Positions 59,976-63,743 of a stretch of DNA of 64,000 bases are shown here, in pieces; position 1 is the first letter of the stretch; each line of letters starts with the position of its first letter. The position numbers and the translations under genes were made by a program. The DNA lies in NCBI GenBank assembly GCA_015231825.1, contig JADGAV010000012.1, positions 1 through 64,000 of the forward strand, given 5' to 3'. This DNA comes from SAR324 cluster bacterium. Its GTDB lineage: Bacteria > SAR324 > NAC60-12. Below the pieces are notes generated by a model that saw only the letters and a list, made by a program, of their open reading frames with translations, made no database searches and was not told where the DNA came from.

Positions 59976-60782
59976 ATGAACGGATTTCAGGCGCTGGTGC
60001 TGGGAATCGTGCAGGGGCTCACCGAATTCCTCCCAATCAGCAGTACGGCCCACCTGAGAATCGTACCACACCTGATCGGCTGGGATGATCCAGGAGCCGC
60101 TTTTTCAGCAGTGATCCAACTGGGAACGCTGGTTTCAGTAATTGTATACTTTCGTGGAGACGTTGTTAAACTGTCGCTTGCTGCAATCGAAAGTTTAATG
60201 AAACGCAATTTGTGGCTTTCCGGTGAATCCCGTCTAGCCTGGGCGATTGCTCTGGGAACATTCCCGATTGTACTTTTGGGACTGCTGTTCAAAGAAACGA
60301 TAGAAACAGAAGCCCGCGGCTTGATGGTGATTGGCATCAGCCTGATTGTTTTTGCCGTTTTTCTATTCATTTCTGAAAAAATATCGTTACAAAAACGTGT
60401 TATTTCCGAATTGAGCGTCAAAGATGTTTTGATCATTGGCATCTGTCAGGCATTTGCCCTCATTCCCGGTTGTTCGCGTTCCGGGTCCACAATCACCGGA
60501 GGGCTTTTTCTCGGCTTAAAGCGAGAAGACGCGGCCCGATTTTCATTTCTGTTGGGACTGCCCGCCATTGCAGGGAGCGGGTTGTTTGAGCTCTTTTCTC
60601 TCTTTGAAGATGGTTTGGGGCAAACCGGAATCATTGAAATTTTGATCGGAATCTCCGCCGCATTTGTCAGTGGATATTACTCGATCGAACTGCTTCTCAA
60701 TTTTATTAAAAAACATGGGACCATTATCTTTGTGCTATATCGAATAATTTTGGGCACGACAATATTGTTCCTTTGGGCGTGA
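59976..60782 (+). CDS. uppP: Undecaprenyl-diphosphatase
   Basis: The BacA/UppP integral membrane phosphatase, which regenerates undecaprenyl phosphate for peptidoglycan and other polymers. It is 268 aa with eight helices. Active-site motifs are QGLTEFLPISSTAHL (residues 13-27) and PGCSRSG with GGLFLGLKREDAARFSFLLGLPA just after (about 163-192). AGGAA precedes the ATG. The protease gene starts 28 bp later, so they may share a transcript. Confidence 0.94.
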   Translation: MNGFQALVLGIVQGLTEFLPISSTAHLRIVPHLIGWDDPGAAFSAVIQLGTLVSVIVYFRGDVVKLSLAAIESLMKRNLWLSGESRLAWAIALGTFPIVLLGLLFKETIETEARGLMVIGISLIVFAVFLFISEKISLQKRVISELSVKDVLIIGICQAFALIPGCSRSGSTITGGLFLGLKREDAARFSFLLGLPAIAGSGLFELFSLFEDGLGQTGIIEILIGISAAFVSGYYSIELLLNFIKKHGTIIFVLYRIILGTTILFLWA

Positions 60783-60810: not shown

Positions 60811-62271
60811 ATGAATTACAAATTTTTTCCTAAGATCAGTTTTTTGCTGCTGATCAGTTTTTCTTTTTTTGAGGGACTGCAAGCACAAAACCCGCCAATT
60901 GAACCCTCTGTCATTCTGATAACCAATCATCAGCAGCTCCCGCAATGGACATCGCCATGGAAACGAGGATTCACTTCCTCCGGCAACGGGACCGGTTTTT
61001 TAATCCAAAACCGGTGGATTTTGACCAACGCTCATGTGGTGAGTAATTCCAGGCTGCTGCTGCTCAAAAAAACTTCAAGTGCCGAACCGTTCATCGCGAG
61101 GGTCGTGGCCATCGCCCATGATTCTGATCTCGCCATTCTCGAAGCGGATGATCCTTCTTTTTATCAGGGAATGCATCCGTTGGAATTGGGAAAATTACCT
61201 GAACTGCAAAGTCACGTCCGTACTTATGGATACCCGATTGGAGGCACAACGATTTCTCGCACCGAAGGGGTGGTTTCCCGTGTAGAATTCGGTACTTATG
61301 TCCATTCCGGAGTTGATTCCCATCTGATTATTCAGACCGATTCTGCCATCAACCCGGGCAACAGCGGCGGACCAGTCATTCAGGATGGCAAGGTGGTCGG
61401 AGTTGCTTTTCAATCAAATCCCAACCTGAATGATGTCGGATATCTGATTCCAGTTCCCCTGGTTCGACGATTCTTAAAAGACATGCAGGATGGAGTCTAC
61501 GATGGTGTTCCTGAAATTGGAATCCAGGTCAGTAATTTGTTGAACAGACATCTCAGACGGTTCCTCAAGTTGCCCTCTGACACGAGTGGAGTACTGATCG
61601 ATCGCGTTCTTCCTCAAACTCCAGCAGAAGGCAAACTTCATGTCGGAGATGTGCTGGTTGAAATAGGAGGAGTGCCCATTGATGCCTCCGGGATGGTCGA
61701 TTATGAAGGTTATCAGGTGCCTTTTCATATTATGGCGGAACATCAGCTCGTGGGAGATTTACTCAACTTTCGCATCTGGCGCCATCAGCAGTTTAAGGAA
61801 GTGGAACTGGAGCTCTCTTTGCCACCCTTTATTAAAGATTTTCGGCTCAGTTACGACACCCCTCCCCAATATCTTATTTTTGGCGGATTGATCTTCATGC
61901 CCTTGAATCGAAACTATCTTCAGTCTTCCCCGCCTTCCCCTGCCCTCCTATATGAGCATCTCTACCGAGAAGCGGAAAAACCAGGAACACGCAGGGAGCA
62001 GGTTCTGATGATTGTCGGGATTCTTCCTTCTCCAGTCAATGCGGGATACACGAATCTTAAAAATTTTGTACTGAATCGCGTCAACGGAATCCCGATTCGG
62101 TCCTTAAAACATTTAAAAAGTGTCCTGGCAGAACTGAAAAGCAGTGCGAGGTTTTATCGATTTGAAAGTGAGTGGGATCCAACCCTCGTGGTGCTTGACA
62201 AGGAAGCCGTTTACCGCGAGCACGAACGGATCCTGGAACGTTATGGAATCGCGGAAGGGGAGCAGTTATGA
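60811..62271 (+). CDS. DegP/HtrA-like periplasmic serine protease with two PDZ-type domains
   Basis: A 486-residue exported trypsin-like protease. The signal peptide (1-25) ends GLQAQ. The protease domain (about 30-225) has an intact triad: H75 in TNAHVV, D106 in HDSDLAIL and S185 in PGNSGGPV. The first PDZ domain (about 232-345) has GVLIDRVLPQTPAEGKLHVGDVLVEIGG (given by GVLIDRVLPQ and VGDVLVEIGG). A second PDZ-like domain (about 350-470) has FGGLIFMPLNRNYL, an arrangement like plant Deg proteases. It overlaps the next gene by 4 bp (ATGA), so the two are translated together. Confidence 0.9.
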   Translation: MNYKFFPKISFLLLISFSFFEGLQAQNPPIEPSVILITNHQQLPQWTSPWKRGFTSSGNGTGFLIQNRWILTNAHVVSNSRLLLLKKTSSAEPFIARVVAIAHDSDLAILEADDPSFYQGMHPLELGKLPELQSHVRTYGYPIGGTTISRTEGVVSRVEFGTYVHSGVDSHLIIQTDSAINPGNSGGPVIQDGKVVGVAFQSNPNLNDVGYLIPVPLVRRFLKDMQDGVYDGVPEIGIQVSNLLNRHLRRFLKLPSDTSGVLIDRVLPQTPAEGKLHVGDVLVEIGGVPIDASGMVDYEGYQVPFHIMAEHQLVGDLLNFRIWRHQQFKEVELELSLPPFIKDFRLSYDTPPQYLIFGGLIFMPLNRNYLQSSPPSPALLYEHLYREAEKPGTRREQVLMIVGILPSPVNAGYTNLKNFVLNRVNGIPIRSLKHLKSVLAELKSSARFYRFESEWDPTLVVLDKEAVYREHERILERYGIAEGEQL

Positions 62272-63743
62272 AATTCAATCTGCAAATACTATTGATTCTG
62301 TTTGTTCTTCCTTCCATTCTTTGGGGAGCAGAACCGGAAAATTCAAATTCTAAAGAATTCAAAAAAAGCGTAGCTCTTATCCGTACTTATCAGCAGGCTC
62401 ATGATTGGTTGATCCCCTGGAACAAAAAAGCGCTTCGCCAGAGAAATGGCGCCGCTTTGGTATTGCCTCAGCAGCAATTGCTGACCACAGCCGGTTTGGT
62501 CATGAACCATACCTTAATTGAAGTCCGAAAACCGGGTGACGATCGCCCTTATGAGGCAGAAGTCATTTTAGCAGACAATGCCATAAATTTGGCATTGCTG
62601 CACGTTTCTGACCCCAGTTTCTGGGATGATTTGGATCCTGTCGAGTGGGGAAAAACAAAATTGGGAGATTCAAAAATTCAATATTGGGAGAGCAAAAACG
62701 AATGGAAATCCATTTCGGGAAAAGTCAAGCAGCTTTTCATCGGTTATCGTTCTCAAAGCAAAGCCCATTTCCCCGTATTTGAAGTTGTCGCTTCTTTAAA
62801 ATCCAAGGTTCAGGGCAACCCGCTTGTTCAAAATAATAAAATAACAGGAATGATCATGCAGTTGCGGGATTCCAATCTTGATGCATTTCCTGCTTCCTTT
62901 CTACAAACTTTCATCAAAAAGGCTTCTGAAAAGCCTTATTCAGGTTTTCCACAAAGAGGATTTGGATGGCAGCAAATCACTCAGGATGCGCTTCGCTCTC
63001 ATTTATCAATTGAAAAAAGCCAGACGGGGATTTTGATTGATCGCATTTTTCATTATGGGACCGGGTCAGACGTTTTGCAAATCAATGATTTTTTGGTTTC
63101 CATGGCAGGAAAGAAGCTTTCCAACGAAGGAAAAATCGAACACTCCGAATGGGGAAACGTGCTCTTTGATTTTTTATTCACAGATCAACCCCAAAACTTT
63201 GAGACATTTTCCCTGGAAGTGATCCGTCAGGGAAAGCGGCTGTCTCTGGAGACACATCTCGAAGATTTTCCCGCAGAGAAATATTCAGTGCCTCTGAAAA
63301 CAGTCGAACATCCGCCTCGATACGTCCTCAGGGGTGGGGTGCTTTTTCAGGAGTTGAACATGAACTACCTTGAAATCTGGGGCAAAGACTGGACCAGTAA
63401 GGCGCCTGCTCGGCTCAGCATTTATCAACAGTTGGAATCTCACCTGCCTGTCAATAAAAACAGAAGGCTGGTCCTCGTGACCCGCGTCCTGCCAACGTCC
63501 ATCAACATCGGCTATCAGAATCTGCGCAGTCTCATCGTCACCGAAATCAACGGACGTCCTGTTCATCGCCTCGAAGATGTGAAAACTGCGTTTGAAAATC
63601 CACGGGACGGATTCCATCAAGTGAATTTCATGCCCGGATCCAACCGGGCCTATCTGATTTTACCAGATGCTGAGATGAAAGCCACTGACCAGCAGATTCT
63701 TCAGCATTTTCAAATTCCTCATCTGGAAAGGTTGTCGTTCTGA
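62268..63743 (+). CDS. Pseudoprotease paralogue of the adjacent DegP-like protein
   Basis: A 491-residue exported protein with the same layout as its upstream neighbour: signal peptide (1-20, ending LWGAEP), trypsin-like domain, PDZ (about 230-345, TGILIDRIFHYG) and second PDZ-like domain (about 350-470, RGGVLFQELNMNYL). The catalytic triad is lost: H75 corresponds to G76 (TTAGLVM), D106 to N107 (NAINLALL), and the PGNSGGPV loop is shortened to QGNPLV with no Ser. The reading frame is intact, arguing for a retained non-catalytic role, for example as partner or adaptor. The start lies in the protease stop. Confidence 0.85.
   Translation: MKFNLQILLILFVLPSILWGAEPENSNSKEFKKSVALIRTYQQAHDWLIPWNKKALRQRNGAALVLPQQQLLTTAGLVMNHTLIEVRKPGDDRPYEAEVILADNAINLALLHVSDPSFWDDLDPVEWGKTKLGDSKIQYWESKNEWKSISGKVKQLFIGYRSQSKAHFPVFEVVASLKSKVQGNPLVQNNKITGMIMQLRDSNLDAFPASFLQTFIKKASEKPYSGFPQRGFGWQQITQDALRSHLSIEKSQTGILIDRIFHYGTGSDVLQINDFLVSMAGKKLSNEGKIEHSEWGNVLFDFLFTDQPQNFETFSLEVIRQGKRLSLETHLEDFPAEKYSVPLKTVEHPPRYVLRGGVLFQELNMNYLEIWGKDWTSKAPARLSIYQQLESHLPVNKNRRLVLVTRVLPTSINIGYQNLRSLIVTEINGRPVHRLEDVKTAFENPRDGFHQVNFMPGSNRAYLILPDAEMKATDQQILQHFQIPHLERLSF

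Follow-up and report, generated by a model that had tools for sequence, protein, structure and literature searches.

Why would a bacterium keep, directly behind the gene for an intact protease, a second gene for a protease of the same build that has lost its catalytic residues? HtrA/Deg proteases are textbook homo-oligomers, and an active copy followed by a dead one raises the question of what the dead one is for. The window, by which we mean the whole 64,000-nucleotide stretch of contig JADGAV010000012.1 that was analysed (SAR324 cluster bacterium, assembly GCA_015231825.1), carries two such genes next to each other on the same strand, and the ORF coordinates bear out the ATGA overlap that an earlier note on this DNA had described (Table 1). 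The two predicted proteins align end to end with 25% identity across their full length (160 bits, E = 5e-48), in agreement with the earlier description of full-length paralogues with an identical domain order. Both have a hydrophobic N-terminus that appears signal-peptide-like when judged by eye, and the dead copy retains an intact frame and both PDZ domains, as the note had also claimed.

Table 1. Features of the active and dead protease genes, with positions in the window.
Feature	Position	Strand	Basis
Gene of the active Deg2/Deg9-type protease (486 aa, counting the hydrophobic N-terminus)	60811..62271	+	ORF
Pro49-Trp50, active copy, N-terminal/LA segment motif	60955..60960	+	Column conservation
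Trypsin_2 domain, active copy, aa 60-198	60988..61404	+	Pfam
His75, active copy	61033-61035	+	Alignment
Asp106, active copy	61126-61128	+	Alignment
Ser185 (in GNSGGP), active copy	61363-61365	+	Alignment
PDZ1, active copy, aa 234-301 (PDZ_2 model match; domain extends to about aa 337)	61510..61713	+	
PDZ_3 (PF17815), active copy, aa 347-482	61849..62256	+	Pfam
ATGA, dead-gene start codon overlapping active-gene stop codon	62268..62271	+	
Gene of the catalytically dead twin (491 aa, counting the hydrophobic N-terminus)	62268..63743	+	ORF
Pro50-Trp51, dead copy	62415..62420	+	Invariant in 78/78 dead copies
Gly76, dead copy, at catalytic His position	62493..62495	+	Alignment
Asn107, dead copy, at catalytic Asp position	62586..62588	+	Alignment
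Gln182 (KVQGNP), dead copy, at catalytic Ser position	62811..62813	+	Alignment with relatives
PDZ1, dead copy, about aa 228-335	62949..63272	+	Sub-threshold in Pfam; aligns with Deg9
PDZ_3 (PF17815), dead copy, aa 341-485	63288..63722	+	Pfam

Alignment supported the triad H75-D106-S185 proposed earlier for the active copy. For the dead copy the earlier note had read glycine, asparagine and a deletion at the three catalytic positions; the first two are correct (Gly76 and Asn107), whereas alignments with relatives place Gln182 at the serine position and rule out a deletion there. The catalytic triad of a Deg2/Deg9-type HtrA is therefore present in the first gene and missing from the second. Pfam matched Trypsin_2, PDZ and PDZ_3 in the active copy and only PDZ_3 in the dead copy, with PF17815 scoring 102 and 97 bits, respectively, against a cut-off of 22.8. 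At the sequence level the dead copy matched Deg9 with E = 1.4e-38 over residues 46-454, which cover the protease and PDZ1 domains, and the best PDB matches of its AlphaFold model (pLDDT 85) in Foldseek were Deg2 and Deg9, over about 465 columns with a query-normalised TM of 0.77-0.83. For both window proteins, sequence comparison and AlphaFold/Foldseek agree on plant Deg2 and Deg9 (4fln, 5il9) as the nearest solved relatives. TIGR02037, the Do family model for DegP/DegQ, gave 104.9 bits for the active copy and 19.6 for the dead copy, and its cut-off is 416.2, which rules out DegP/DegQ membership. Because the nearest structures are Deg2 and Deg9 and the Do-family scores fall so far short, we assign the pair to the Deg2/Deg9 branch; the label DegP-like used earlier should read Deg2/Deg9-like (protease, PDZ1, PDZ_3). 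Judged by its residues, the second gene is a non-catalytic paralogue rather than an active member of this group.

We examined relatives of the window for the same arrangement. PDZ_3 proteins were present in 33 of 41 genomes of the window's taxonomic order, two in each apart from one fragmentary genome, and these sets consist of the active gene followed by the dead gene. Both genes were missing from seven genomes of the order (68-99% complete), six of one genus plus G009; G023 and G028, from the same order, are incomplete genomes. Every active copy in the order that was complete enough to read has H-D-S, and no readable dead copy has the His or the Ser, with several in a second family retaining the Asp. 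Elsewhere in the window's phylum, outside its order, we found no PDZ_3 proteins. For other phyla, named genomes were scanned with an alignment of active copies, followed by phylum samples. The pair was found in metagenome-assembled genomes (MAGs) assigned to Myxococcota (L121), Verrucomicrobiota (L123, L133), Planctomycetota (L124) and Pseudomonadota (L128); in a Desulfobacterales MAG it is split across two contigs. The samples yielded about 40 pairs in 195 Verrucomicrobiota genomes, 15 in 199 Planctomycetota genomes and 4 in 189 Myxococcota genomes. Many pair-bearing genomes are MAGs, and their taxon labels are those of the depositors; two pairs of the Verrucomicrobiota sample (L248 and L284, in G421 and G510) lie in near-complete genomes of 2.65-2.66 Mb, and one pair sits in a single-contig genome of 2,664,102 bases.

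In total we collected 99 contiguous pairs (82 and 17 in two sets), always with the active gene first and on the same strand. Of these, 32 come from the window's order and the others include pairs from Verrucomicrobiota, Planctomycetota, Myxococcota and Pseudomonadota. Across all pairs, His and Ser are present in every complete first gene and both are missing in every readable second gene. Solitary genes of the Deg2/Deg9 type also occur in these phyla, and all those read retain His and Ser; one solitary homologue (L201, in G144) has Glu at the catalytic Asp position and GSSGGP in place of GNSGGP. In the genomes searched, we found no active or dead pair-type gene without its partner apart from cases at contig ends, which account for the apparent lone copies (L122 with L232; L291; G038; G479). 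The genomic co-occurrence of the two subunits is strict in this sense. One genome with an intact pair (G542) has in addition a 140-residue fragment resembling a dead copy on a separate contig (L297). The earlier note had proposed checking whether active and inactive copies stay together in related genomes, and they do: both genes co-occur in the window's order, the same ordered pair recurs in other phyla, and loss of the second gene alone from close relatives was not found, since genomes have both or neither when contig ends and the one fragmentary genome are taken into account. Because so many genomes of several phyla retain both genes in this order, we regard it as very likely that the dead copy is a partner the active one cannot do without, and not a gene in decay.

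The surroundings of the pair are less stable than the pair itself, which a comparison of flanks showed to be the sole constant while neighbours vary by clade. In about 20 genomes of the window's family, a gene for BacA/UppP (undecaprenyl-diphosphatase) lies upstream, at window positions 59976-60782, and a polyprenyl-synthetase-like gene, named by eye, lies downstream from about 63812. In a sister family (L053, L054, L055, L058 and others) the pair is directly followed at nine loci by a gene for an ECF sigma factor, and the ORF after that has no Pfam match and may encode its anti-sigma factor. Because an ECF sigma factor gene adjoins the pair in this family, a link between the pair and envelope stress is suggested. 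The junction within the pair is variable in detail. Of the first 82 pairs, 40 allow an exact four-nucleotide start/stop overlap, as do 8 of the 17 further pairs, and in 76 of the 82 an in-frame start lies no later than +20 relative to the stop. In about a quarter of junctions the two genes do not overlap or are separated by a small gap; in L248 and L284 the active and dead frames differ, the active gene stops with TAA and the next start follows 5 nt later. The overlap fits translational coupling, which we infer from it, short of proof.

To compare selection on the two genes we used 18 pairwise comparisons, and the relaxed selection on the dead copy that the earlier note had considered was not found. 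The dN/dS of the dead gene was 0.025-0.19 in 17 of the 18, with one outlying value of 0.75 at a dS of only 0.023, and that of the active gene was 0.007-0.28. Constraint on the dead gene is in most cases somewhat weaker than on its partner, yet it is clearly under purifying selection. In a whole-protein tree of 199 rows, the 81 dead copies fall on one side of a branch with an SH-aLRT of 100, and the active copies of the pairs separate from the solitary proteins, among which are Deg2 and Deg9. In a tree built from PDZ columns only, the dead group needs two changes, although the starred branches force only one, and long branches meet. Because this second tree does not strictly recover the dead copies as monophyletic and its long branches meet, a single origin of the dead copies rests mainly on the whole-protein tree; we consider it likely, short of proof. 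The distance matrices of active and dead copies are correlated at r = 0.94, with 0 of 999 permutations as high, a mirroring that vertical co-inheritance alone would produce.

To locate the constraint, we divided the mean column identity among dead copies by that among active copies over 78 pairs. The protease core had a ratio of 0.46, against 0.86 for the N-terminal strand with the LA segment, 0.83 for PDZ1 and 0.97 for PDZ_3, a pattern that fits the PDZ binding or regulatory role suggested earlier for the dead copy. Of 65 core columns conserved in solitary proteins, active copies retain 57 and dead copies 16. The Pro-Trp of the N-terminal segment, which we read as the putative LA loop, is also retained in the active copies of pairs (Pro in 99%, Trp in 96%). 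All solitary proteins have a Gly-Tyr in PDZ_3 that 95-96% of dead copies but only 28-36% of active copies share, and a W...AP segment is missing in the active copies of the window's family and present in all 21 of their dead partners. This looks like reciprocal loss, each twin shedding what the other retains, although the pattern was found post hoc and without a null model, and the Gly-Tyr asymmetry is missing from the window's own family, where the active copies retain the motif. The dead copies of genus g7 (L043, L044, L046, L048-L052 and others) carry inserts of about 16-20 residues in the protease domain and PDZ_3 that are missing elsewhere. Four residues ahead of the lost catalytic Asp, Asp103 of the dead copy (window 62574-62576) is found in 99% of dead copies at a position that is mostly Ala in active copies, and 62 of 78 dead copies have D, E, N or Q at the catalytic His position. 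Together, Asp103 and the polar replacement of His could possibly form a repurposed polar or metal site.

We consider it probable that translational coupling of the pair yields a hetero-oligomeric protease whose dead subunit is a partner in assembly, in PDZ function and probably in allosteric activation. The protease would be of the Deg2/Deg9 type, exported and presumably periplasmic, with one kind of subunit from each gene and cutting left to the active subunit. The dead subunit would be synthesised alongside it via translational coupling, co-assemble through its trypsin-fold domain and its N-terminal/LA segment, and provide PDZ docking and substrate-presentation surfaces. Most likely it would also provide the inter-subunit L3-to-LD contact that activates the neighbouring catalytic subunit. 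In HtrA trimers, the activation domain of each protomer is ordered by L3 from its neighbour; monomeric HTRA1, which does not have that contact, is inactive, and an active-site-dead HTRA1 subunit rescues the activity of its partners in mixed trimers (PMC11252331). The Deg2 hexamer is built by the LA loop docking on PDZ2 (PMC4877387). With the fold, the LA segment and both PDZ domains, a dead subunit could take on every task of the enzyme other than cleavage. The data show a conserved gene order, the loss of catalytic residues, purifying selection, linked ancestry and selective retention of the PDZ and N-terminal segments; we infer that the proteins are exported and form a mixed oligomer, as well as the stoichiometry of that oligomer and how activation proceeds.

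Two other explanations deserve weight, and we judge each of them unlikely. The dead protein could mainly be an inhibitor or decoy that binds the active protease or its substrates and keeps the enzyme resting until a signal arrives. Conservation of the PDZ domains without catalysis would suit such a role, as would the equal dosage that the overlap implies, and Deg2 itself has a locked resting hexamer (PMC4877387). However, the closest characterised case, MamO, is an activator of its partner protease (PMC4794232), and activation in trans is also known from inactive HTRA1 subunits (PMC11252331). Alternatively, and in our estimate with a similarly small chance, the dead protein could be an independent envelope chaperone or PDZ-binding scaffold that acts in the same pathway without joining the protease. 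Two proteins that share a pathway without ever making contact could likewise be adjacent and co-inherited, the predicted model has a complete fold with conserved PDZ domains, and co-transcription alone would account for the linkage. Such a protein would not be expected to co-occur strictly with pair-type active copies, with no genome seen to have only the dead gene, nor to remain so tightly coupled over several phyla while its neighbours change.

A third explanation, that the second protein has acquired a different hydrolytic or metal-dependent site from new acidic residues, seems very improbable. The prevalence of Asp103 and of D/E/N/Q at the His position speaks for it, but many different residues occupy the nucleophile position (Q, W, A, T, Y, F, H, D, R), and most dead copies have lost the oxyanion-loop glycine. 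Finally, a decaying duplicate would explain the missing catalytic residues and the drifted protease core, but it is refuted by the selection and distribution data, as low dN/dS, together with frames that stay intact and PDZ domains that stay conserved across about 100 genomes from several phyla, leaves it virtually no chance. Returning to the hetero-oligomeric protease, a more far-reaching form of this reading is one that we hold tentatively, with slightly more doubt than confidence: an obligate hetero-oligomeric Deg machine, present in at least five phyla, in which one ancient duplication would have split catalysis from PDZ and assembly functions and the dead subunit would have gained an acidic site (Asp103 plus an acidic or amide residue for His).

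The earlier note had regarded an obligate active/inactive pair as unusual. Against the homo-oligomers otherwise described for HtrA proteases this holds, but MamE/MamO and plant Deg7 are precedents. A widely kept active/dead pair would offer a natural system for studying what non-catalytic subunits do in assembly, PDZ presentation and allosteric activation. It also bears on why selection joins a live protease to a dead one, a question that MamE/MamO raised for magnetosomes only. Searching the open-access literature, we found no described bacterial active/dead pair of the Deg2/Deg9 type. Deg2 and Deg9 of Arabidopsis (4fln, 5il9) resemble the window proteins in fold and domain order (protease, PDZ1, PDZ_3) but are solitary, catalytic and described as homo-oligomers, unlike the presumably exported bacterial pairs. 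MamE/MamO likewise joins an active HtrA to one with a degenerate triad; MamO is a dead HtrA-like protein needed for MamE proteolysis, and such pairing arose three times in magnetotactic bacteria (PMC4794232). Unlike the dead twin, MamO requires a TauE-like membrane domain, binds metal and is confined to magnetosome clusters, and MamE/MamO belongs to a different HtrA branch. Model scores rule out membership of that family: the NCBIfam model for MamE gave the window's active copy 66 bits (cut-off 800), and the one for MamO matched neither window protein. Plant Deg7 (PD-PDZ-PDZ-PDia-PDZ-PDZ) combines an active and a degenerate protease unit derived from a whole-gene duplication, and its degenerate domain mediates trimerisation (PMC4754418, PMC3473262). 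Deg7, however, holds both units in one chain and belongs to one eukaryotic lineage, whereas the window has two overlapping bacterial genes with a stop and a start between their ORFs, and in the pairs compared a frame difference or a stop keeps the active and dead genes apart. Arabidopsis Deg5/Deg8 is a reported HtrA hetero-oligomer (PMC4877387) but not an active/dead pair, and it differs in domain content, Deg5 having no PDZ domain. Compared with these systems, the pair described here is distinguished by its place on the Deg2/Deg9 branch, its separate overlapping genes, its spread over several phyla and its age.
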